Shown one piece after another: positions 41,296 to 60,920 of a stretch of DNA of 64,000 nucleotides. Position 1 is the first letter of the stretch. Every line of letters starts with the position of its first letter. The notes beneath the pieces are model-generated. The model was given only the letters and a program-made list of their open reading frames with translations. It had not been told where the DNA came from and did not search any database. Where the stretch lies: NCBI RefSeq assembly GCF_001854225.1, contig NZ_CP015208.1:1178001-1242000 (forward strand), written 5' to 3'. This DNA comes from Candidatus Rhodoluna planktonica. Its GTDB lineage: Bacteria; Actinomycetota; Actinomycetes; Actinomycetales; Microbacteriaceae. A program made the position numbers and the translations under genes.

Positions 41296-43416
41296 ATGAA
41301 GGTGCGAGCAGACATTCAAGCCCTGCGCGCCGCCGCTGTTGCGATGGTGCTGGCTTTTCATCTTTGGCCGCATCGATTCGCTGGCGGCTTTGGTGGAGTC
41401 GATGTTTTTTTCGTAATCTCAGGGTTTCTAATTACTGGCTCGCTGCTATCAGACAAGTGGCTTGAAGCGTTTCGTGAATCTAAGTCATCGGCACTTAGCG
41501 CATTTTGGTTGCGGCGCATTAGGCGTTTGTTGCCGATGGCGCTGCTGGTTATTTTTGCAACTGTTATTGGTTCATGGCTAATTGTTCCGGCTGCGGCCCG
41601 AAGCGAATTTACCGGAGATGCGCTTGCCAGCATTTTCTATTTTGAAAACTTCAAATTGGCTTTGAGTCAGGCCGACTATTTTGCGGCCAGTGCGGCGAAT
41701 CCGTTTCAGCACTATTGGTCTTTGGCAGTTGAGGAACAGTTCTATCTGGTTTGGCCGGTACTGTTGGGGGCGCTGTTTTTTGCGGGCAAGAAACGCTTTT
41801 CGGTTGCGGTGCAGGGTGTGGTCGTCGCCGCCTCGTTCGCCTTTTCGATTTGGCAATCACACACCGATGCAACTTTTGCATACTTCAATACCCTCACCCG
41901 GGTTTGGCAGTTTGGGTTGGGTGCACTGTTGGCGGTTGGGGCGCTAGGCACCAATGGAGTCGCCACGACGCTGAGCAAGGTCGGTGCGATGCGCACCTCA
42001 GACCGGCTGCTTTCACCGAGTGCGCGTGTAGGCGTTGCCACAGTTGGTTTTGCTGCCATTGTTCTGAGCACATTTTGGCTTGATGAGAGTTTGCCGTTTC
42101 CAGGCTGGCAGGCGCTGCTGCCAACTTTGGGGGCCGGGGCAGTTATCTGGGCGAAAGCCGATTTGTCTTTTGCTTCCGATTGGCCCGGGCCAGCAGGTGC
42201 GGTTAGTCGCTTTTTCTCTCGGACAGTCATTTGGCTCGGCGACATTTCTTATTCGCTTTATCTATGGCACTGGCCGGTGATTATCCTTGCCGGTTATGCG
42301 CTTGGGCGCGAACTTAGCAATTATGAGTTGGTTGCGGTGCTGGTGCTTTGCTTGGGTTTGGCTTGGGCTTCAAAACGTTTGGTTGAAGATCGCATTCGAC
42401 ACTCGCAAAAAATTAGGGAACTGCCAATCTCTCGGCAATTTGCGGTCGCAGTTGCGGCAAGTGTGCTTTGCGCCGGGGCGGCACTTGGGGCCGGTTTGGC
42501 AGCCCAAGCTTCGGTGGCCGAACAACAGCAGAAACTTGTCACTGCAGAGGCAAGTGAATGTTTTGGCGCCCGCTCGGTTGGCAAAGCCGATTGCTCCCCC
42601 GTAGCAAACCAAGATGTGGTGCCGACTCTCGATTTTGCGAAACGCGATGCGGCGGATGCCGGCAGTGTTTGCATGGTTAAGGCTCTTGAAACCGAACCAA
42701 ATTTTTGCCGCATCACCGAGGGCGAGGTTCGAGTCTTGCTTATCGGCGACTCACATGCGGCAACTCATCTGGGTGCGCTAAAGATTTTGGCTGAAGAGCG
42801 CGGCTGGGCACTTGATCTGAGCTATCACGCCGGCTGTTCGTTCAGCCTGGTCGAGCGCAATAGCGAAGAGCGCGGTGTGGCTTGCGCCAAATGGAACGAA
42901 TTGGTAAGTGCGCAACTGGCTGCAGCCGACCCTTACGACATTGTGTTCACCGCCTCATATGCGCGCAACCGCCTGGCTGATTTGCCCGGTGTCACCGATG
43001 AGGTTTTGGCCCGAGGATTTGCGGCTGCATACACTTCGCTGCTTGAACGCGGTTCGAAACTTTATGTGATTCGCGATAATCCCGAGATGGATGCCGCGAT
43101 GAAAGAGTGTTTCGAAACCGCGGTGCGTGACGCCACGATGTGTTCGATGAATGTGACTAACGCATTTGTTGGTGATGCTGCGGTTAGCGCAGCAGTCAGT
43201 TTAGGTGCCGAACTTGTCGCCGGCGCTGCTTCCACCGGGGGCTCTACCGGTCCGTATGCAAAGCAGATTCGCATCCTTGATTTCACCGATGTGTATTGCC
43301 CAGGCGGCATGTGTACGGCAAGCGTCGGCGGGGTTTACGTTTACCGCAACGCCGATCACATCAGTGCAACCTTTTCGCGATCAATGGATGAAGTGTTCGC
43401 AGCTCGATTGAGATAG
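41296..43416 (+). CDS. Acyltransferase-3 membrane protein with C-terminal SGNH domain (OafA-type)
   Basis: 706 residues. Residues 1 to about 390 hold roughly ten hydrophobic segments with the family signature RADIQALRAAAVAMVLAFHL, FVISGFLITGS and HYWSLAVEEQFYLVWPVL, the membrane domain that acylates surface glycans. The C-terminal periplasmic part is an SGNH esterase-like domain with VLLIGDSHAATHLGAL and a closing NADHISATFS that supplies the Asp-x-His-type residues. Likely adds acetyl or similar groups to cell-wall polymers. Thirty bases separate it from the divergent HAD gene; TAAACT seven bases before the ATG hints at a leaderless start. Confidence 0.93.
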   Translation: MKVRADIQALRAAAVAMVLAFHLWPHRFAGGFGGVDVFFVISGFLITGSLLSDKWLEAFRESKSSALSAFWLRRIRRLLPMALLVIFATVIGSWLIVPAAARSEFTGDALASIFYFENFKLALSQADYFAASAANPFQHYWSLAVEEQFYLVWPVLLGALFFAGKKRFSVAVQGVVVAASFAFSIWQSHTDATFAYFNTLTRVWQFGLGALLAVGALGTNGVATTLSKVGAMRTSDRLLSPSARVGVATVGFAAIVLSTFWLDESLPFPGWQALLPTLGAGAVIWAKADLSFASDWPGPAGAVSRFFSRTVIWLGDISYSLYLWHWPVIILAGYALGRELSNYELVAVLVLCLGLAWASKRLVEDRIRHSQKIRELPISRQFAVAVAASVLCAGAALGAGLAAQASVAEQQQKLVTAEASECFGARSVGKADCSPVANQDVVPTLDFAKRDAADAGSVCMVKALETEPNFCRITEGEVRVLLIGDSHAATHLGALKILAEERGWALDLSYHAGCSFSLVERNSEERGVACAKWNELVSAQLAAADPYDIVFTASYARNRLADLPGVTDEVLARGFAAAYTSLLERGSKLYVIRDNPEMDAAMKECFETAVRDATMCSMNVTNAFVGDAAVSAAVSLGAELVAGAASTGGSTGPYAKQIRILDFTDVYCPGGMCTASVGGVYVYRNADHISATFSRSMDEVFAARLR

Positions 43417-50530: not shown

Positions 50531-51988
50531 CTAGCGCGTCTTTAGCAGTTCGGCGTAGGGAACGCGCTTTCCGTAGAAGAAGTATCCGTCGGTAATTTCT
50601 GGCAGGTTGCCCAGGTGCACTGAAAGTTCTTCGATTGTGTCAAAGGCTCGGGCATGACCGCCGTCAATCAGTGGAGACAGGTGCTCCCAGCCTGCTAACT
50701 TCAAAATTGCGATGCGGTTTTTTAGTCCGGCGGCTTCGATCAAAGTTGCCGAGAATACTCCGACACAAATTTCGTTCTCGAGCAGAAGTTCTAGTGATGA
50801 TGCGCTCTCATCGGCAATAGAGAAATTCGACGGGCCAACATCGGTAAATTCGCTGAGTTCATCCTTGGGATGTGGTTTGAAAACAACTTTGTATTCGGGT
50901 TCGAGTTTGGCTAATTCGATGGCATTTTTATAGAGCTCGAGGCCGATTAGAGGTTGGGACATAACCACCACTGTTTTTGGCGGGCGCCGATAACCGGCCG
51001 CCTCGGCGCGTTTGCGCACCGCTTCAAATTCTTCGGTGGCTCCAGAAACAACAATTTCTTGGCTGCCCGAGTTTTCGATGCCTGCTGTCCAGTACTCCCC
51101 CCAAGTCCAGATTTCGTTTGGAATGTATGGCACCTCTGGGCGAGTTGGCCAAGAGAATTGCATGTTGTATTTGCTGAATACGCCGCACTGCAGTTCGATA
51201 ACTTTGATGCCGGCAGCTTGGGCTGCACCCATAAAATTCATGCGACTGGCGTTGACGATAAAAAGACGCTTAAGGTTTAGGCGCTTGAACAGGATGCGAT
51301 AACCGCGGCCCTCAGCTAAAAAGTTGCGCACCGCCCAGCGTGGAAAATTCTTGTAATTTCCGGCCGAGGCACCTGCCGCCTGCTCAAGAAATTTTATTAC
51401 TCGGGCATATTTTGCGTAGTCGGCTTTACTCAACCGAAGCCGAACATAGAGCGAGGCCAACAGCCCCCAACGTTTTCTGAAGTGCCCTTGCAGATTGTCG
51501 AGGTGGGGCCAGTGCCGTTCGCGATCGTATGAGCCAACGCCGAATCGAATGGCGTCATCGCCGAGCAAATCTTCAATTGGTTGGCTGAAGCGATCGATGC
51601 CTTGCGCGTTGCGGTTTGAGAATGGGGCGATCATGTCGCTGGCTTTTAGCCACTTCACGAGGCGTTCGTCACGCATTGAGTCGGGAATCAGTTTGCGCAA
51701 ATACCAGCGCCAACCGGTGACACCTTTCCATAAGACTTTGTGGCCTTTTTTACCTTCAAAGCGCGGATACCCTTCGGGCAACTGAAATTTAGTTGAGGCC
51801 TTCCAAGCGTAAACACCAGAGTTTTTGGTGAGGTTGTAAAAAATTCGAAAACGCACCAGTGGCCAGATGCGAACGCCGAGGACATCCCAGCTGTAAAGGT
51901 CTTCTTCTTTTTCAATCTGCCAGAAGGCTTCACAAACTTCGCGCACGCTGGCGATTTTTTGCGGTTCTAGATTTGATTGCTGAGACAT
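50531..51988 (-). CDS. Putative GT-B-type transferase with HP and Ser motifs, nonulosonate locus
   Basis: 485 residues, no signal peptide. The C-terminal half looks like a nucleotide-sugar transferase lobe: VVMSQPLIGLELYKNAIELA, then YKVVFKPHPKDELSEF (HP motif) and ENEICVGVFSATLIEAAGLK (Ser/Thr motif). HP plus Ser motifs are the CMP-binding signature of bacterial sialyltransferases and polysialyltransferases (GT38, GT52, GT80). The N-terminal half (ASVREVCEAFWQIEKEEDLY) is shared with the next gene, its paralogue. Position directly downstream of neuA and the other nonulosonate genes suggests transfer of a CMP-nonulosonate to a surface glycan; inference only. Confidence 0.7.
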   Translation of the reverse strand: MSQQSNLEPQKIASVREVCEAFWQIEKEEDLYSWDVLGVRIWPLVRFRIFYNLTKNSGVYAWKASTKFQLPEGYPRFEGKKGHKVLWKGVTGWRWYLRKLIPDSMRDERLVKWLKASDMIAPFSNRNAQGIDRFSQPIEDLLGDDAIRFGVGSYDRERHWPHLDNLQGHFRKRWGLLASLYVRLRLSKADYAKYARVIKFLEQAAGASAGNYKNFPRWAVRNFLAEGRGYRILFKRLNLKRLFIVNASRMNFMGAAQAAGIKVIELQCGVFSKYNMQFSWPTRPEVPYIPNEIWTWGEYWTAGIENSGSQEIVVSGATEEFEAVRKRAEAAGYRRPPKTVVVMSQPLIGLELYKNAIELAKLEPEYKVVFKPHPKDELSEFTDVGPSNFSIADESASSLELLLENEICVGVFSATLIEAAGLKNRIAILKLAGWEHLSPLIDGGHARAFDTIEELSVHLGNLPEITDGYFFYGKRVPYAELLKTR

Positions 51989-52088
51989 TAAGGCCTTTGT
52001 TTGTTTAGTTGCTAAGGCAATTATCCCCCGTGCGCTGATTTACTGATGCCCTAAACCAGAGTCGATATTTCTTAGAGAGGCCGGGAAA

Positions 52089-53801
52089 TTAGGGCTGAAG
52101 ACTGAGGACTAAAGACGAGTACTGTTCGGGAGACAGCGGTTTAGCAAAGTACTTGAGCGGGTTTCCGGCAATTCGAGCAGCCGCAAACTCGGCCGAGAGA
52201 TCAGAATCTGCCTCAGCCAAAAGCAAGTCTCCACGTTCGGCTATAGCTCGCACGTGCTCGAAGCCTGGCAGTTTTAGCGCGATGACTTTGGCGCCTAAAG
52301 CAATGGCTTCAACCAGCGCCATCGAGTGCACTCCAACAACGAACTCACTTTTGGCAATCAGTGGAAGTGCGGGCTCATCCGGGTTAGCTAATTTGAAGTT
52401 GCTGGGTAAATACGAATAGGCGACCTTGATGGAAGTGGTTTCGGTGTCGCGCGGTGTGAAAGATGGTGCCGCGGCGGCACCGTCGGGGCCAGAAGCGCCT
52501 GCGGAACCGTCGGGGCCAGCGGCAGGGCCCGTAGCGGCGGTCGTAGCATCGGCCTCGGCCTGTGCGAAATCAATAATCAACTGGCGGTATTGCTCACGTG
52601 TTTCTTGCGGATGCGGCTTGAGTGTAATTTGCAAATCTGGGTTCGCCTTCGCCGCGCGAACAGCGAGCTCAAACAGCTTCGAAGTCTGCTGAGCCTGTGA
52701 GGCAATCAACACAGACCCGGGCAGCCGAACCGCCGAAGCCAAACCTTTACCCATTCGCTCGGCCATAGAACTTGGTGCACCGACCACCGAAATTTGCAAA
52801 GACTTTGGCGCCCCTAGGTTTTCGCCCCAAAACTCGCCCCAGGTATACAACTCATTAGGCAAATAAGCGACAGCTTCGAGAGGTTCTGCCGACTCAACCA
52901 AGGCAGCTTCAACTTGTCTCGACTCGGCAACTCGGCCAGAAAAACTGAACAGCGGATGAAACTCACTCAACAAGCCGTGCTGGGGTTCAACCACCCACAC
53001 GCCCGCATCTTGGGCACCAGCAATCAGCGGGCGCTTCCAAGCGTTCACGACAAAAAGTTTCTGCACTGAAGTTTGCCGAAAAAGCTTTTTCCAGCCGATG
53101 CGCTTGGCGATGAAATCAACAATCAACCAAGTTGGGAAAGCGGCGTATTTTGACGTCAACGACTGAGCAGTGCGCGCGGAGGTCGCCGCTCGCACGGACT
53201 CGGTGCCCGCGGCGGCATGCGCACCCTCAACAGAAGCATCAGCAACCAATCCGCTTAGGGCAGCATTCAGCGAAACAATAAAGTTTTTCCAACGTGAGCG
53301 ATCAACTGAACGTTTATTCAAATACGCGGGCAAGACACGCAACTGTGCGCGGCGACGGTAACGGTGCGCGAATTCAGCTTCCAACTCCTCCACGTGCGGT
53401 CGCTTGGCAACCTGCGGATTATCAGAAACCAAATCAGCATCGCCCATGCCGAAAATCAACGGGCGGGCATCCGCCTCATCCAAGATTCGCAAAATATCTG
53501 CAGAAAAAGGATCAACCCCGGCAGCATCGCGACGCAAAAACGGAATAACCGCATACTTACTCTGCGGGATTTGAAATTCACTTGGCGCCTTACGCGCAAC
53601 CTTAGGCTGCTCAACACGACGCTCATAGATGCCCAACTGCTCGAGCACCTCACGCATCATCCGTTCGCGCAACACCGGCCAAAAATAAACACCGGCAATC
53701 TTCCAGTTGACCAAATCAAACTCGGCCTCGATGCGCTCGAAAACCCGCCAAACATCATCGAGCGAGGCAGGTGAAGCAGACCCAACTTGCTCAGCGATCA
53801 G
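52089..53801 (-). CDS. Second paralogous HP/Ser-motif transferase, with low-complexity insert and probable CTG start
   Basis: About 570 residues if begun at CTG 53801. That codon overlaps the neuA stop (CTGA) with GGGGA six bases upstream. It restores an N-terminus (ASLDDVWRVFERIEAEFDLV) that aligns with the paralogue; the only ordinary start, TTG 53714, would cut this off. Shared blocks are AYLPNELYTWGEFW, LQITLKPHPQETREQY (HP) and KSEFVVGVHSMALVEAIALG (Ser). A Gly/Ala/Pro/Asp-rich insert (about 52450-52570, with GPDG repeats) sits just after the HP motif, and another Ala-rich stretch (53165-53235) lies mid-protein. Probable glycosyltransferase of the nonulosonate locus. Confidence 0.68.
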   Translation of the reverse strand: MIAEQVGSASPASLDDVWRVFERIEAEFDLVNWKIAGVYFWPVLRERMMREVLEQLGIYERRVEQPKVARKAPSEFQIPQSKYAVIPFLRRDAAGVDPFSADILRILDEADARPLIFGMGDADLVSDNPQVAKRPHVEELEAEFAHRYRRRAQLRVLPAYLNKRSVDRSRWKNFIVSLNAALSGLVADASVEGAHAAAGTESVRAATSARTAQSLTSKYAAFPTWLIVDFIAKRIGWKKLFRQTSVQKLFVVNAWKRPLIAGAQDAGVWVVEPQHGLLSEFHPLFSFSGRVAESRQVEAALVESAEPLEAVAYLPNELYTWGEFWGENLGAPKSLQISVVGAPSSMAERMGKGLASAVRLPGSVLIASQAQQTSKLFELAVRAAKANPDLQITLKPHPQETREQYRQLIIDFAQAEADATTAATGPAAGPDGSAGASGPDGAAAAPSFTPRDTETTSIKVAYSYLPSNFKLANPDEPALPLIAKSEFVVGVHSMALVEAIALGAKVIALKLPGFEHVRAIAERGDLLLAEADSDLSAEFAAARIAGNPLKYFAKPLSPEQYSSLVLSLQP

Positions 53802-54559
53802 CTATCGTCCCCGTTGTCTTGAATCGGAAACTCATCGGCACCGGTAACCTCTTCGATGGTTTCAATCAAACGCTTTGCTCGCTCAAAATCTTCACGCGAA
53901 TCAATGTCGATGCTTGAAACCGAATCCATCACGTAAGCAGCCGCGCCCTCAACCGGCACCTTCTTAGCCGCCATCAATGCACTCAACTTGAAAATGTAAA
54001 TCGCACCGTTAGGCAAATACGCCTTCGGCAAGGCCTGGCGATTCTGCCCATAAGCTTCAGGGAACATCGTCGAAACACGACCGGTTGGCCCAACGGTTAG
54101 GGCCCAATAAGGGCTTTTGTCTGGCTCAACGACTGAAACAACCGAATCAACTCCGGGGCCTAGCAGGTGAAAAGCCTCTTCAACGTGACGACCCTTGCGC
54201 CCCGGCGAAGTGGGCTGCAAATACACAATCCAAGGGTCGCTATCTTCAAGCGAAACCAATGTTTCAGGATTGTTGAAATAATCGTGCAGTGCATCGTAGG
54301 CCGAAGCTTCATCGCTGGATGCAAAAGTTGAGCGCCTAAAATCAACCGCACCAAGACGACGGGCCTCATCGAGAATCTCATCATCGTCAGAAGAGACCAC
54401 AACCACATCAACTGGGGTGCCCAGTAAAAACCCTTTAGAAGAATCAATGGCGCGCTCAATCAAAGTTTTGTCGCTGATCTTCATCATGTTTTTGCCGGGT
54501 AAACCCTTTGAACCACCCCGAGCCGGGATGAAGGCGATAACTAACTCATCGTTGAGCAT
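53798..54559 (-). CDS. neuA: CMP-nonulosonate (sialic/legionaminic acid) cytidylyltransferase
   Basis: Activates the nonulosonate with CTP. 253 residues with the NeuA signature IAFIPARGGSKGLPGKNMMK, VVVSSDDDEILDEARRLGA, and WIVYLQPTSPGRKGRHVEEA (the LQPTSP block). The closing SSIDIDSREDFERAKRLIE is typical of LegF/NeuA/PseF. GGGGG lies five bases before the ATG. It follows the CBS-nucleotidyltransferase gene by 9 bases; in Campylobacter the same trio marks the legionaminic pathway. Confidence 0.93.
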   Translation of the reverse strand: MLNDELVIAFIPARGGSKGLPGKNMMKISDKTLIERAIDSSKGFLLGTPVDVVVVSSDDDEILDEARRLGAVDFRRSTFASSDEASAYDALHDYFNNPETLVSLEDSDPWIVYLQPTSPGRKGRHVEEAFHLLGPGVDSVVSVVEPDKSPYWALTVGPTGRVSTMFPEAYGQNRQALPKAYLPNGAIYIFKLSALMAAKKVPVEGAAAYVMDSVSSIDIDSREDFERAKRLIETIEEVTGADEFPIQDNGDDS

Positions 54560-54568
54560 GATTTCCCC

Positions 54569-55624
54569 CTAGTAATCAAGCCAGTGTTCGAGGTTATTGC
54601 GAGCATCGTTTAGGTCATCGTGACGACCGATGTCTAACCAAGACTCGTGAATTGGAAACGCCGAAACTTTCTGGCCATTCGACTTAATCATGTCGAGCAA
54701 AGTTGGCATATCGCAATACTCACCCTGCGGAATCAAACCCAGAACCCACGGATCAAGCGCGTAAATACCGGCCGACACCATTGAGCGGTGAATTGGCTTC
54801 TCTGAAATTGACTCAACCTCGGTGCCCTCAATATTCACCACACCGTAAGGAATTTGGAATGTGTATTCGCGCACGCCCAAAGTGGCTTTGGCCTGATGCT
54901 TTTTGTGAAAGCGAACCACCGAACGAAAATCAACGTTGGTGAGCAAATCAGAATTCATGACAATAAACGGCTCGTTGACCGAACCCTGCAACTGCCCTAA
55001 AGCACCGGCTGTGCCGAGCGGTTTATCTTCGTGCAGGTATGTCACGTTGAGACCCAACCAGGCACCATCTTTGACGTGGTCGATAATCACATCGGCCAAA
55101 TAGTTGACCGAAATAAACACGTTTTTGAAACCCTGCGACTTTAGCTTGCGCAAAATAATTTCAAGGATGGGTGTATCGCCAATTTTGAGCATCGGCTTGG
55201 GCACATCCTTAGTTAGTGGATAAAGGCGCACACCTTTACCACCGGCCATCAACACTACCGGGGTGCTGATTTCAAGCGGAGTGACCAGATCTTCATCGGT
55301 GTACATTCCAACCACGCGGCCATCGGCATCAACCACCGGCACATTATGAATGAGCTGCGGAATCTCACGCGTCATTACCTCTTGCCCATCTTCTTCAAGT
55401 CGAGCAACGTGTGGTCGTGAGTTCATCACCTCGGTGATTGGCGTTTCGAGTAGTAAACCGCGAAGTAACCCGCGTCGAATGTCGCCATCGGTCACGGTGC
55501 CTAACAAGCGACCGTCGGCATCAATGACCAAAGCGATTTGCTTGGCACCCTTGTTGATTGCCGAAATGGTGTCGAGCAAAGTGGCGGCTGGAGCCACAGT
55601 GAGGTCGGCTAGGTTTTTTAGCAC
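54569..55624 (-). CDS. ptmE: CBS-domain nucleotidyltransferase, PtmE-like sugar-1-phosphate guanylyltransferase
   Basis: 351 residues. Two CBS motifs occupy about residues 1-115 (VIDADGRLLGTVTDGDIRRG and VVDADGRVVGMYTDEDLVTP), followed by an NTP-transferase domain starting VVLMAGGKGVRLYPLTKDVP. This layout is that of PtmE, which makes GDP-glucosamine for the GDP-linked legionaminic acid route of Campylobacter. Substrate here is by analogy. Start is GTG at 55624 with GGAGG four bases upstream. Confidence 0.87.
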   Translation of the reverse strand: MLKNLADLTVAPAATLLDTISAINKGAKQIALVIDADGRLLGTVTDGDIRRGLLRGLLLETPITEVMNSRPHVARLEEDGQEVMTREIPQLIHNVPVVDADGRVVGMYTDEDLVTPLEISTPVVLMAGGKGVRLYPLTKDVPKPMLKIGDTPILEIILRKLKSQGFKNVFISVNYLADVIIDHVKDGAWLGLNVTYLHEDKPLGTAGALGQLQGSVNEPFIVMNSDLLTNVDFRSVVRFHKKHQAKATLGVREYTFQIPYGVVNIEGTEVESISEKPIHRSMVSAGIYALDPWVLGLIPQGEYCDMPTLLDMIKSNGQKVSAFPIHESWLDIGRHDDLNDARNNLEHWLDY

Positions 55625-55632
55625 TTAGCCTC

Positions 55633-56295
55633 CTATTGCTCTTCGATTGGGCTGGCCTGAGCCGGAACACCGATCGCGATGTGGTTGTCTGGGATGTCGC
55701 GGATAACCACGGCACCTGCGCCAATAATACAGTTTTCACCGATTGAGATGCCTTGAATTACGGTTGCCCCGGCACCAATGTGGGTGTTGGCACCAATGCT
55801 GACATCACCGCAAATTCGAGCACCAACCGAAACGTGCACGCTTTTTTCGATGTTCGAACCGTGCTCGATGATTGCGCCGGTGTTCACAATGGTGTTGTCG
55901 TCGATAAACACATCCGGGCCGATTATTGCGCCATTGAGCACCTGCACACCCTCGAGCATGCTGGCCGAATCGGCCACAATCGCACTTGGTGCCTCAACCT
56001 GCAAAAAGTTGAAACCGGCAGCCTTGAATTTGGCAAACACCGATGCACGACCTCGCAAACTCGAGGTTGAACCCAAACCATTGACCAGTAGAAACTCTTC
56101 GGTAGAAAACTCCATGAGGTTGGCGTCGTAACCCAACCAGGGCACATCGCTGCCGTCGGCGCGTAAGCCCAAAATTGAATCAACATCGCGCGGGGCGACA
56201 TAGCCGTGCAAATCAAACCCAACTTCACTAAGGATGCTCTGCAGCACACGCGCATGCCCGCCAGAACCGAGCATCACCAGTTTTAGATCAGCCAT
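55633..56295 (-). CDS. NeuD/PglD-type sugar O/N-acetyltransferase
   Basis: 220 residues. N-terminal small Rossmann-like domain (LKLVMLGSGGHARVLQSILSE, the PglB/NeuD start) and a C-terminal left-handed beta-helix with hexapeptide repeats (GVQVLNGAIIGPDVFIDDNT, VHVSVGARICGDVSIGANTH). In legionaminic acid synthesis LegH adds the second acetyl group to the 4-amino sugar; this is the probable role. It lies between neuB and the nucleotidyltransferase. Confidence 0.88.
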   Translation of the reverse strand: MADLKLVMLGSGGHARVLQSILSEVGFDLHGYVAPRDVDSILGLRADGSDVPWLGYDANLMEFSTEEFLLVNGLGSTSSLRGRASVFAKFKAAGFNFLQVEAPSAIVADSASMLEGVQVLNGAIIGPDVFIDDNTIVNTGAIIEHGSNIEKSVHVSVGARICGDVSIGANTHIGAGATVIQGISIGENCIIGAGAVVIRDIPDNHIAIGVPAQASPIEEQ

Positions 56296-56327: not shown

Positions 56328-57425
56328 CTAGTCAACGTAGTCGCCAATTTCATAACTGGTTTCGGCTAGCGTGCCAACCACCTGATAAAAATCGAATGAG
56401 GTGCGGCCGGCACCGGGACGGCGACACTCAAGGTCATCCTCGGTGATAAGTTGCCCGGCAACGATTGGCCGCTTGGCAACCAAGCTGCGACGAACCGCAG
56501 CACGGTTAGAAACTTCAATGGGCTGACACTCTTTGACCGGCTGGCCCAGAGCTACCGTGGCTTGGCGTATTTCGCGCACCAGAGTAGCCAACTCGATTGG
56601 GTCTAGCGAAGCCTCGTGGTCTGGGCCCTCGAGCGACTTGTCTAGGGTGAAATGCTTTTCGATAACCGTGGCGCCAAGAGCAACTGAGAGAACTGAGGCG
56701 AGCACTCCGGCCGAGTGGTCGCTGTAACCAACCGGTAAACCAAAACGGTCGGCGATAACCGAGATAGCCTTCAGGTTCAAAATGTCTAGCTCAGCCGGAT
56801 ACTGCGTGGTGCAGTGCAGAATGGTGCATTTTTCGCGCATCAAATCTTGTACTTCGCGAACCATCCAGACAGCATCGATAACCGCATTGGTTGGCACAGC
56901 ATCGGCCGCCACAATGTTATTGGCCTGAGCAAAACCGAAGGCGATGAACTTCAGCGAATGCTCGATTTCATCGAGGTTGGCCATGCCGGTTGACAAAATG
57001 ACCGGCAGATTTGATAGACCCGCCTCAACCAGCATCGGGGCAAAAGTTAGATCACCCGAGGCAACCTTCACCAACGGGATGTGCAGCTCGTCAATTAGAA
57101 AACGCAGCTCGTCGAGGTCGAAACCGGTGGATAGAAAACCGATGCCAATCTTTTTGCAGTGGTCGCGAATTGCGGTGAACTCTTCGTGGCTTAGCTCGAG
57201 GCCTTTGAGCAGATCCCACTGTGAACGAGTGTCGCCGTCACCCTTCTTTTGGTATTCGGCCAACTGGGCATCTTTGCGAGCCAACTTATCGGCCGAGAAG
57301 GTTTGAAACTTGACGATGTCGGCGCCCACCTCTTTGGCAAGATCACACATCTCGAGCGCCCGCTGCAGTGAACCGTTGTGGTTGACCCCGGCTTCAGCGA
57401 TTATCAAAACCTGGTTGGCGCTCAT
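56328..57425 (-). CDS. neuB: Nonulosonate synthase (N-acetylneuraminate/legionaminate synthase)
   Basis: Condenses PEP with a six-carbon amino sugar to give the nine-carbon acid. 365 residues: TIM-barrel start LIIAEAGVNHNGSLQRALEM, PEP-site KFQTFSADKL, metal-site GYSDHSAG and EKHFTLDKSLEGPDHEASLD, then a C-terminal SAF antifreeze-like domain (RRSLVAKRPIVAGQLITEDD). The start ATG at 57425 overlaps the neuC stop (ATGA). Specificity between sialic and legionaminic acid cannot be read directly; the legB/legC neighbours favour legionaminic. Confidence 0.93.
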   Translation of the reverse strand: MSANQVLIIAEAGVNHNGSLQRALEMCDLAKEVGADIVKFQTFSADKLARKDAQLAEYQKKGDGDTRSQWDLLKGLELSHEEFTAIRDHCKKIGIGFLSTGFDLDELRFLIDELHIPLVKVASGDLTFAPMLVEAGLSNLPVILSTGMANLDEIEHSLKFIAFGFAQANNIVAADAVPTNAVIDAVWMVREVQDLMREKCTILHCTTQYPAELDILNLKAISVIADRFGLPVGYSDHSAGVLASVLSVALGATVIEKHFTLDKSLEGPDHEASLDPIELATLVREIRQATVALGQPVKECQPIEVSNRAAVRRSLVAKRPIVAGQLITEDDLECRRPGAGRTSFDFYQVVGTLAETSYEIGDYVD

Positions 57426-58648
57426 TTGTTCTCCCAAAACTTTTTCTTCGGCGGTTGCGGCAGGTCGATTTCGACCAAAACTTTGGTGGCTTTGGCGGCA
57501 AAACCCGGCTCGCCAAAAGGCGATTTTGCGGCGGCGGCTCGAGCTCTAAATTCATCGCTCAATGCTTGCTGCAGGGCTGCCAAAATTTCTGCTCGCTGAG
57601 CCTCGGGCTTTAGCACCGAGTCACCCATGGGGCGGCCTTCTTGGCGGTTTCCGATCAAAACACTGGGCACGCCAAAAATTGGGGCTTCCAAAACCGTGGA
57701 TGAAGAATTGCCGGCAACCACGTCGACCTGCTTCATCATCGAGAGATAACCGAGTTGGCCGAATGATTCAACATACGAAACGCGGTCGGCATGGGTGGTT
57801 ACGAATTTGGCGATGGCGGCGCGCACTTCGGCCGAGCCGATGTCGTTGTTGGTGCCGGTAATGATCAGTTGGACTGTGCCTGTGGCGGTGGGGGCGCCGG
57901 TGGTACCCGAAGCGGTTGATACCCCCGCGCCGGCGGGACCGGCAGCACTCACTGCTTCGAGTGCGGCCAGCAGCTCGTCGATTAGAACCTGAGCCGGTGC
58001 CACATCGAAGGCGGCCGGGTGGAAAGTCATCATGACGGTTTTTTCACCGAAGCGCACCCCAAATTTATGCTCAAGTTCTTCGCGACTAAGCAGTTGCAAA
58101 TTGGCAATTGCATCAAGAACCGGAGCACCAAAATTGAACACTCGCTGCGGCTCTTCACCCAACTGCAGCACTCGGTCGCGGTGCTCTTCGGTGGTAACAA
58201 AGTGCAGGTACGAAAGTTTGGTAATCGAGTGGCGCAAGGCGTCATCCATGGCCCCCAAGGTGAGCTCACCACCGTGAATGTGCGCCACAGGAATCAGCAA
58301 TACGGTCGCGGCAGTGGCCATTGCAAACGCCTCGAGACGATCGCCGAGAACCACAACCACATCGGGTTTTAGGTCGTTGAGTACGCGGGCAAAAGCGGCA
58401 ACCGCTTCGCCGGTTTCAATAGCCGCATCGATTGATGCCGACGATTCACCCCAGATGGCAACCTCGGCTGCCGGTTCGAAACCATCCGCGTAAATTTCAC
58501 TGACGGTTGAACCGTGCGCGGCCGAAAGATGAGTGCCGGTAACGATTAGTTGCAGGGTTGCTTTAGGTTCGGCAGCGACCTGGGCGATCAGATTGCGCAG
58601 TAAACCATAGTCGGCACGGGTGCCGGTCATGATTGCGATTTTGCGCAT
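57422..58648 (-). CDS. neuC: Hydrolysing UDP/GDP-sugar 2-epimerase with low-complexity insert
   Basis: Makes the 2-epimer amino sugar used by NeuB (LegG/NeuC type). 408 residues from ATG 58648 (MRKIAIMTGTRADYGLLRNL); the longer frame overlaps legC. Family motifs LQLIVTGTHLS, VVVVLGDRLEAFAMATAATV, HIHGGELTLGAMDDALRHSI and GNSSSTVLEAPIFGVPSVLI are present. About 30 Gly/Ala/Thr/Pro residues (AAGPAGAGVSTASGTTGAPT region, 57880-57960) interrupt the strand before QLIITGTNND and are not part of the family fold. Confidence 0.92.
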   Translation of the reverse strand: MRKIAIMTGTRADYGLLRNLIAQVAAEPKATLQLIVTGTHLSAAHGSTVSEIYADGFEPAAEVAIWGESSASIDAAIETGEAVAAFARVLNDLKPDVVVVLGDRLEAFAMATAATVLLIPVAHIHGGELTLGAMDDALRHSITKLSYLHFVTTEEHRDRVLQLGEEPQRVFNFGAPVLDAIANLQLLSREELEHKFGVRFGEKTVMMTFHPAAFDVAPAQVLIDELLAALEAVSAAGPAGAGVSTASGTTGAPTATGTVQLIITGTNNDIGSAEVRAAIAKFVTTHADRVSYVESFGQLGYLSMMKQVDVVAGNSSSTVLEAPIFGVPSVLIGNRQEGRPMGDSVLKPEAQRAEILAALQQALSDEFRARAAAAKSPFGEPGFAAKATKVLVEIDLPQPPKKKFWENK

Positions 58649-58689
58649 CTGCTGCTTTCTGGTCGGGTGGTCGGTGGGCGGTGAGTCGA

Positions 58690-59904
58690 CTAACGAATGT
58701 GATTCGCCAGTCGCGGGGTTGATGGAATGCAAATCAGTGATGCGTGCAGCGCCTCAGCGGTTTTTACCGAAGCGGTTTGTGCGCCGGTGTACATGCGTTG
58801 CTTGTGCAGCAGGTTCCACATCGGACGCACCAAAAAGCCAGCATCGTGGGCCGCCTGCATTAGCTCGTCGCGCACCGCAAGTGAAGGTTCATCTAGTTGC
58901 ACGGCACACAACCAGTAATTTGAAGTGGTTCGCTCTGGCTCAAATACAAAGCGCATGCCTTGGGCATCGGCAAAAGCCTCACCATAAGCAAGAGCCAAGC
59001 GTCGTTTTTGCTCAATGAAGCGATCAAACTTGTCGAGCTGGGCCATGCCAAGGGCAGCATTTAGGTTGGGCATGCGATAGTTCCAGGCGACCTCATCATG
59101 CTCGAATTCCCACTTGTGCGGCAGTTTTGCCGTGGTGGTGAGGTGCTTGGCGCGACGACCAAGTTCATCATCGTTGGTCAAAATAACGCCGCCACCACCG
59201 GTGGTGACAATTTTGTTGCCGTTGAACGAAATCATGCCGGTAACACCAAATGTGCCGGTGTGCTTTTTTTCACCCGAGCGAGTGGTGACAAATGAACCAA
59301 ACGATTCTGCGGCATCTTCAACCAGTGGCACGCCAAATTCTTCGGCGATCTCGGCAATTTCTTCAATACGAACCGGATGCCCCAGAGTGTGCATCGGCGA
59401 AATAGCAGCGATGCGGCGGCCGGTCGCCGGGTTAGTGACGCGCTTACCCGATGGCAGGCTGGCATCTGCTTCGACAGACATTGAGCCAAGGGTTTCACGA
59501 AGCGCCTCGGGGCTCATGCCCAGGGTGCCGAACTCGCTGTCGATAAAGTGAGGGTTCGCACCGGTGTGCGATACCGCATTCGCGGTTGCCACAAATGAAA
59601 GGGTTGGCACGATCACTTCATCGCCGGGCTGCACTCCTGCCAAAAACAGTGCTACCTGCAAACCTACAGTTCCGTTTGAAACTGCGATGGCATGTTTAGC
59701 GCCGGTGATTTGGGCCATCCGCTGTTCAAGTTGCGGAATGAAAGCACCGACCGATGAAACGAAAGTTGAGTCTAGGCACTCGGCTAGGTAGCGCTGCTCG
59801 AGGTCGTCGATTTCAGGTTCGTGCAGACCGATTGAACCACCGGGAATTGGCGAACCAATAACCGAACGGATGCGGTCGACAAAATCTTTAGCTAGCGCAC
59901 TCAT
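58690..59904 (-). CDS. legC: PLP-dependent sugar aminotransferase, LegC-like
   Basis: DegT/DnrJ/EryC1 family; LegC converts the 4-keto-6-deoxy sugar to the 4-amino sugar. 404 residues with HAIAVSNGTVGLQVALFLAG, the Asp of LVEDAAESFGS for PLP ring binding, and the Schiff-base Lys in SFNGNKIVTTGGGG. The SFNGNK and LHKQRMYTG details match LegC. It starts 9 bases after legB. Confidence 0.92.
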   Translation of the reverse strand: MSALAKDFVDRIRSVIGSPIPGGSIGLHEPEIDDLEQRYLAECLDSTFVSSVGAFIPQLEQRMAQITGAKHAIAVSNGTVGLQVALFLAGVQPGDEVIVPTLSFVATANAVSHTGANPHFIDSEFGTLGMSPEALRETLGSMSVEADASLPSGKRVTNPATGRRIAAISPMHTLGHPVRIEEIAEIAEEFGVPLVEDAAESFGSFVTTRSGEKKHTGTFGVTGMISFNGNKIVTTGGGGVILTNDDELGRRAKHLTTTAKLPHKWEFEHDEVAWNYRMPNLNAALGMAQLDKFDRFIEQKRRLALAYGEAFADAQGMRFVFEPERTTSNYWLCAVQLDEPSLAVRDELMQAAHDAGFLVRPMWNLLHKQRMYTGAQTASVKTAEALHASLICIPSTPRLANHIR

Positions 59905-59913
59905 GGCCGCTCA

Positions 59914-60909
59914 CTAAACGGTGTATTCGTCGGGACGGTATTTGGCCAGGTTGACCGGATTGGTGAACCAGTCGATGGTTTTAGCCAAACCGGCTCGGAA
60001 ACCCTCAACCCCCTTGATTTCAGGCTCCCAGCCCAACACGGTCTTAGCCTTTTCGTTGTTGCTGAACAGGCGCTCAACTTCGCTGTTTGCCGGGCGAATG
60101 CGGTTTGGGTCTTCAGTGGCCACTGCCCCAGCACCCATTAGCTCGTTGATGATGTCGAAGGTTTGACCAATGGTTACCTCGAAACCAACACCCAGGTTGG
60201 TTACCTCACCGAAACCGGTGCTGGCATGCAGCGCACGCTCAAAACCTTTGGCGGTGTCGGTGACATAGGTGAAATCGCGGGTTGGGGTTAACGAACCCAG
60301 GTTGATTTCTTTCTTACCAGCAGCCAACTGGCTGATGATGGTCGGAATCACCGCACGAGCAGACTGGCGCGGGCCATATGTGTTGAACGGGCGAATCGTC
60401 AAGGTTGGTAGTTCAAACGAGGTGTAGAAGCTTTTCACCATCATGTCGGCGCCAATTTTCGAAGCCGAATAGGGGCTCTGGCCCTGCAGCACGTGACCTT
60501 CATCCATTGGCACGTATTGGGCGGTGCCGTAAACCTCACTGGTTGAAGTGTGAATAAAGCGCTCGATGCCGGCATCGCGAGCCGCATTCAAAAGATTTAG
60601 CGTGCCCTGAATGTTGGTCTGCACATAAAGATCAGGGGCTACATAACTAAACGGGATGGCGATTAGCGCCGCCAAGTGCATGATGGCCTGTTGGCCCTTG
60701 GCCAACTGCGCCATGTGATATGGGTCGCGAATGTCGCCCATCACAATTTCCATGTTGGCTTTCACGTCTTTATCGATGGTGTCGAGCCAACCGTGTGAAC
60801 CAATTGAGTTGTAAATGCACAGTGCCCGAACCTGGTGGCCGCTGCGAACCAATTCTTCTGCCAGGTGTGAACCGATAAAACCGTCGGCGCCAGTTAGAAA
60901 GACCTTCAT
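59914..60909 (-). CDS. legB: NAD-dependent sugar 4,6-dehydratase, LegB-like
   Basis: Extended SDR enzyme, first committed step of the legionaminic pathway on a UDP/GDP-GlcNAc. 331 residues with NAD-binding VFLTGADGFIGSHLAEELVR, STSEVYG and the catalytic YSASKIGAD (Tyr-x3-Lys), then TIRPFNTYGPRQSARAVIPT. ATG 60909 gives MKVFLTGADG; an upstream TTG adds three residues. No good ribosome site, but TAAACT lies eight bases upstream. It follows the histidine-kinase gene by 11 bases. Confidence 0.93.
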   Translation of the reverse strand: MKVFLTGADGFIGSHLAEELVRSGHQVRALCIYNSIGSHGWLDTIDKDVKANMEIVMGDIRDPYHMAQLAKGQQAIMHLAALIAIPFSYVAPDLYVQTNIQGTLNLLNAARDAGIERFIHTSTSEVYGTAQYVPMDEGHVLQGQSPYSASKIGADMMVKSFYTSFELPTLTIRPFNTYGPRQSARAVIPTIISQLAAGKKEINLGSLTPTRDFTYVTDTAKGFERALHASTGFGEVTNLGVGFEVTIGQTFDIINELMGAGAVATEDPNRIRPANSEVERLFSNNEKAKTVLGWEPEIKGVEGFRAGLAKTIDWFTNPVNLAKYRPDEYTV

Positions 60910-60920
60910 AGCGGTCAAGT

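Follow-up and report, generated by a model that had tools for sequence, protein, structure and literature searches.

Enzymes that attach legionaminic acid (Leg) are poorly known. In work from 2017, transferases of Tannerella were reportedly proven by knock-out. According to a 2020 paper, no enzyme attaching legionaminic acid to cell surfaces had been reported (PMC7439481). The sialyltransferases of GT38, GT52 and GT80 carry a D/E-D/E-G catalytic motif (defined in PMC2169525). A second motif, (K/R)XHP, is common to sialyltransferases and to Kdo transferases of the retaining type; the Pro packs against the cytosine, and the K/R residue in most cases binds the base (PMC12887879). In the GT38 enzyme SiaD of Mannheimia haemolytica (5wc6), the catalytic base is E153 of D/E-D/E-G, and His291 of HP together with Ser339/Thr340 touches the phosphate (PMC5517516). 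Tannerella forsythia GtfS and TFUB4_00887 are HP-motif transferases of nonulosonates (Pse and Leg derivatives) proven by knock-out (PMC6388019, PMC6120980), and KpsS1 (GT118), which transfers Pse with retention, has relatives among the retaining Kdo transferases (PMC12887879). Gene position and an HP motif do not by themselves prove transfer, because in Bacillus subtilis the HP-containing protein SpsB, encoded beside the CMP-Leg genes, turned out to be dispensable for Leg transfer (PMC7439481).

Two paralogous genes close a legionaminate operon

We analysed a window of 64,000 nucleotides from Candidatus Rhodoluna planktonica (positions 1178001-1242000 of the complete 1.42 Mb genome). Seven same-strand genes, from LegB to the CMP synthetase, are followed by P2 and then P1, which close the operon:

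59914-60918, minus strand: LegB 4,6-dehydratase (TIGR04180, 455 bits, just under the cut-off of 475)
58690-59904, minus strand: LegC aminotransferase (TIGR04181, above cut-off)
57422-58732, minus strand: NeuC-type hydrolysing NDP-sugar 2-epimerase (LegG; TIGR03568, above cut-off)
56328-57437, minus strand: NeuB-type synthase (LegI; PF03102, 2e-82; TIGR03569, 394 bits, just under the cut-off of 400)
55633-56295, minus strand: NeuD/PglD-type acetyltransferase (TIGR03570, above cut-off)
54569-55624, minus strand: CBS domain plus sugar-1-phosphate nucleotidyltransferase, PtmE-like (PF00571, PF00483)
53798-54559, minus strand: CMP-nonulosonate synthetase, NeuA/LegF type (PF02348, 2.9e-15; PseF, 4e-29, below cut-off)
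52089-53801, minus strand: P2, paralog of P1, 570 aa, with a probable CTG start overlapping the stop codon of the CMP-synthetase gene
50531-51988, minus strand: P1, 485 aa, a candidate CMP-legionaminate transferase that resembles GT-B glycosyltransferases

The seven upstream genes make up the set expected for CMP-legionaminate, which their family memberships suggest as the product. From the sensor-kinase-like gene (60921) to the transporter-like gene (49610), both so labelled from reading the sequence only, we found no further glycosyltransferase gene. P1 and P2 are paralogs: aligned over the greater part of both proteins, they share 24% identity (143 bits, E 2e-41). An earlier note on this DNA had described two paralogous HP/Ser-motif proteins, with KPHP, GVFSATLIEA and GVHSMALVEA, at the end of a nonulosonate operon that held no second glycosyltransferase gene; all of this agreed with our results, and the motifs are present as quoted.

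The only ATG, GTG or TTG start available to P2, the TTG at 53714, would remove the conserved block SLDDVWRVFERIEAEFDL. The P2 frame is open up to 53801; at that point it has a CTG, overlapping the TGA that ends the CMP-synthetase gene. Because no ATG, GTG or TTG preserves the conserved P2 N-terminus, the start is likely this CTG at 53801; the region concerned is 53714-53806 of the window, minus strand. Automatic annotation of P2 from the TTG at 53714 would lose about 29 residues. P2 owes its greater length to insertions rich in Ala and Gly, of which one separates the HP motif from the Ser motif. Low-complexity insertions rich in Ala, Gly, Thr and Pro occur at two places in P2 (52089-53801) and also in NeuC (57422-58732; AGPAGAGVSTASGTTGAPTATG); in the alignment, no other P2 row has the longest of the P2 insertions.

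Motifs and conservation

The motifs of the two proteins lie at the following positions:

50867-50878, minus strand: P1 KPHP, of the form (K/R)xHP, residues 371-374, predicted cytidine/phosphate binding
50735-50761, minus strand: P1 Ser motif GVFSATLIE, predicted phosphate binding
51182-51196, minus strand: P1 ELQCG (E-x-Q-x-G), aligned where D/E-D/E-G would stand
52608-52619, minus strand: P2 KPHP, of the form (K/R)xHP, residues 395-398
52308-52334, minus strand: P2 Ser motif GVHSMALVE
52974-52988, minus strand: P2 EPQHG (E-x-Q-H-G)

Both (K/R)xHP and the Ser/Thr motif (G-x-[FYH]-[ST]) were kept in all 29 aligned family members. In composition shuffles, the order HP then Ser arose by chance in 6 of 20,000, for P1 and for P2 each; conservation is the better evidence for the two motifs. 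Across the 29 homologs, which had a mean column identity of 32%, the unchanging positions included H373, P374, N388, E406, G410 and E418. The D/E-D/E-G catalytic motif of GT38, GT52 and GT80 was missing from the 29 members, and the aligned place reads E-x-Q-[HCSN]-G; two rows have M instead of Q, and one has D instead of E. Thus, the arrangement of bacterial sialyltransferases that had been claimed for the pair holds for its HP and Ser parts but not for D/E-D/E-G.

At the variable position of this site, H-G was found in every row of P2 and of a third clade, against Q-[CSN]-G in every P1 row. The first residue of (K/R)xHP is K in members from Leg operons and R in third-clade members; the difference tracks the tree and could, but need not, indicate the type of donor. 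The mean column identity of P1 was 58%, and the window proteins shared 69% (P1) and 48% (P2) identity with those of locus L032.

Relationship to known families

We compared the family with known families by hhalign. Its C-terminal half matched DUF6716 (PF20471; 96%, 3.9e-9) and actinobacterial PF07388 polysialyltransferase-like proteins (85%, 6.8e-6), against 3.3% for the TagF set and 0.5% for NeuC as contrasts. P1 and P2 themselves scored below the curated cut-offs of every known family against which they were tested. For PF07388 (23.3), P1 reached 19.0 bits and P2 gave no match, and one P1 ortholog just passed (23.6). For PF20471 (27), neither P1 nor P2 matched, and a homolog from the distant genome G132 reached 16.0 bits. 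For PF05159 (KpsC/KpsS-type; GT99, GT107 and GT118; threshold 20), P2 reached 11.9 bits and P1 gave no match. Neither protein matched PF04464 (TagF/TagB). The model NF046086 is named BFO_1060, which we take to be a Tannerella locus tag. P2 scored 25.0 bits against its cut-off of 200, and 27 of the 29 family members matched it, all far under the cut-off; across actinobacteria, no genome exceeded that cut-off. At E 0.1 or better, PF07388 was matched by 12 of the 29 members and DUF6716 by six. Searched against the PDB, the family profile had Mannheimia SiaD as its sole relevant match (E 0.0035 for the whole sequence, with no single stretch significant).

Each relative differs from P1 and P2 in specific ways. 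DUF6716, annotated as a putative glycosyltransferase, gives the best profile-profile match to the C-terminal half, and in actinobacteria its genes neighbour those for NeuB and a CMP synthetase, in many cases with a PF07388 gene as well; however, the HP motif is missing at the matching place of the alignment, and the window proteins do not match its model. The actinobacterial PF07388 proteins have their own FKPHP and GCFSTAL motifs and a linkage to NeuB, but they carry a D-G motif of their own in contrast to E-x-Q-x-G here, and the likeness is confined to the C-terminal half. SiaD shares the HP and Ser/Thr phosphate contacts, whereas its catalytic E153 is not kept in P1 or P2 and the sequence match is very weak. 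GtfS and TFUB4_00887 are set apart by their description, since D/E-D/E-G and DXD are reported for both. KpsS1 is related to KpsC/KpsS, and the window proteins reach PF05159 only below threshold.

These profile comparisons make the family a new branch within a clan already known, and not a system of a new kind. The proposal in the earlier note, that P1 and P2 are candidate CMP-nonulosonate transferases of a new family, keeps its functional part, for which operon, linkage, motif and profiles speak; its claim of newness is only partly right, because the clan is already known and one ortholog just passes PF07388, so "new family" is a fair term if qualified. The rarity that the same note saw for such a setting in actinobacteria was overstated: NeuB loci there commonly bear PF07388 and DUF6716 transferase-like genes. 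In the actinobacterial loci L105-L108, L110, L111, L113 and L068, genes for NeuB and a PF07388 protein, mostly a CMP-sugar synthetase and usually a DUF6716 protein lie a few kb apart. DUF6716 proteins probably transfer nonulosonates or act as partners of such a transferase, and the P1/P2 family would tie DUF6716 and the actinobacterial polysialyltransferase-like proteins to nonulosonate transfer.

Two AlphaFold models, each built from a four-sequence alignment, had low confidence (pLDDT 65 and 63). These low-confidence models matched many GT-B enzymes (MurG, UDP-GlcNAc 2-epimerases and antibiotic glycosyltransferases), with Z up to 14.6 and 14.3. GT38, GT52 and GT80 chains were absent among the 50 matches listed in either comparison, which says little. 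The models support a GT-B fold for P1 and P2 and leave the choice of family beyond that fold aside.

Distribution and linkage to NeuB

The family was matched in 18 of the 99 genomes searched, including that of the window, and all except one belong to the same genus; in the wider class, it was found in 3 of 297 genomes, again including the window's own. P2 followed by P1 in the same orientation stood at the end of the Leg operon in all 12 genomes or contigs with a visible operon end, among them JAGWTM010000075 (L032); P2 was clipped by the contig end in G042 and G044, and P1 in L032. In nine other congeners, a single homolog of the third clade lies directly beside a different NeuB-type synthase. 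Among 60 genomes searched for both, 15 had the family and NeuB, 2 the family only (G042 and G044), 6 NeuB only and 37 neither (Fisher p = 1e-7, uncorrected for shared ancestry). No family member was found in G013, a congener with a clear PseI, and none of 34 pattern matches in viral contigs was a relative.

In the tree, P1, P2 and the third clade were separate (support 100/100, 100/98 and 100/100). Therefore, judging from the sequences sampled, the P2-P1 pair is old and both copies have been retained; the split between them predates the divergence of the sampled Leg operons.

In G132, a 440-aa homolog adjoins a GT2-like gene, and NeuB is on another contig. A weak match in G291 lies within a DUF6716-type protein, with NeuB and a PF07388-type gene nearby. 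In G087 (L055:7839-11294, minus strand), a 1151-aa protein combines a GT4 domain with a distant family member and adjoins a NeuB that carries an unknown N-terminal fusion part. The 731-aa P1 proteins of G020 (L041:8395-10590) and G008 (L042:3238-5433) consist of a degenerate P1-like N-terminal half and a complete copy. A second type of nonulosonate locus (L049:12053-13678, minus strand) encodes a CMP-sugar synthetase fused to a PseG-like hydrolase. Pseudaminate was considered for the third clade and set aside; the adjoining synthase falls below the NeuB and PseI cut-offs, and the CMP synthetase is fused to the PseG-like domain.

Predicted function of P1 and P2

Because of the operon position, the linkage to two different NeuB-type loci, the (K/R)xHP motif and the remote but specific profile similarity, a role in CMP-nonulosonate transfer is the reading we favour: P1 and P2 are likely GT-B transferases that use CMP-Leg and join Leg to a surface-glycan precursor. 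Against this reading count the missing D/E-D/E-G motif, the low-confidence models with their matches to generic GT-B enzymes and not specifically to sialyltransferases, the SpsB precedent, and G132, whose family member and NeuB are on different contigs. The analysis establishes the operon, the paralogy, the linkage, the motifs and the profile kinship; the donor, the division of labour, the base residue and the acceptor are our inferences. Both proteins would be cytoplasmic, with the CMP-Leg produced by the seven upstream genes as the source of the legionaminic acid they transfer. CMP would be bound by the C-terminal Rossmann half, where (K/R)xHP would touch base and phosphate, and the phosphate would also meet the G-x-[FYH]-[ST] loop; acceptor binding would fall to the N-terminal half. 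The likely catalytic base would be the conserved acid in E-x-Q-x-G, and the His of E-x-Q-H-G may serve in P2. P1 and P2 probably catalyse two different steps, because every Leg operon with a visible end retains both. For example, P2 might put the first Leg on the acceptor and P1 a second Leg, or P1 might use another acceptor.

One or both proteins might instead make a Leg polymer or a teichulosonic-type wall polymer alone, like a polysialyltransferase, which would be a sub-case of CMP-Leg transfer. The kinship to PF07388 and DUF6716, neighbours of NeuB in actinobacteria with large genomes, and the Kdn teichulosonic acid of Streptomyces walls (PMC11481543) point that way, but the Leg operon has no polymer-export gene, and we consider such synthesis unlikely. 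The site E-x-Q-x-G bears on a different question. Since the motif His, present in all P2 and third-clade rows, is replaced by Cys, Ser or Asn in P1, P2 alone might be the working transferase, with P1 as a non-catalytic partner or an enzyme of different chemistry; the additional N-terminal half on P1 of G020 and G008 would fit this division. However, KxHP, the Ser motif and the Glu in E-x-Q-x-G are all retained by P1, which is also better conserved than P2 (69% against 48% between the window and L032), and we hold this reading to be quite improbable.

P1 and P2 might also move another sugar or a polyol phosphate onto the Leg glycan, as TagF-like or other GT-B enzymes with UDP or CDP donors, and Leg would then be added by an enzyme encoded elsewhere. 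E-x-Q-H-G resembles the T-W-H-G of TagF-type enzymes, the fold matches of the models are GT-B enzymes that use UDP-sugars, and SpsB of B. subtilis is a precedent (PMC7439481). Against this stand the TagF result by hhalign (only 3.3%), the absence of a PF04464 match in the window proteins, the invariant (K/R)xHP and the fact that the family follows two unlike NeuB loci and not one polymer type; we regard such a role as quite improbable. Within CMP-Leg transfer, a bolder version can be offered tentatively, as a possibility we rather doubt: P1, P2 and the third clade would form a new CMP-nonulosonate transferase family at the CAZy level, with an E-x-Q-[HCSN]-G site unseen in GT38, GT52 and GT80 and with paralogs acting sequentially on a Leg-containing wall glycan in streamlined actinobacteria. 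For experiments, the family offers small candidate enzymes that come in pairs, belong to a full pathway in actinobacteria with small genomes and have obvious residues for mutagenesis.

Possible acceptor

Genes for export or polymerisation are missing from the Leg operon. Elsewhere in the genome, at about 1.075-1.087 Mb, we found GT2 genes, a PF04464 (TagF-like) gene, genes for an LCP protein, an ABC ATPase and an ABC permease, and a Wzy_C ligase-like gene. Our guess from this gene content is that a wall glycopolymer made by this locus may be one acceptor. The window also encodes an acyltransferase-3 protein with an SGNH domain (41296-43416, plus strand), a candidate O-acylase of surface glycans, at a distance of about 7 kb from where the Leg operon ends.
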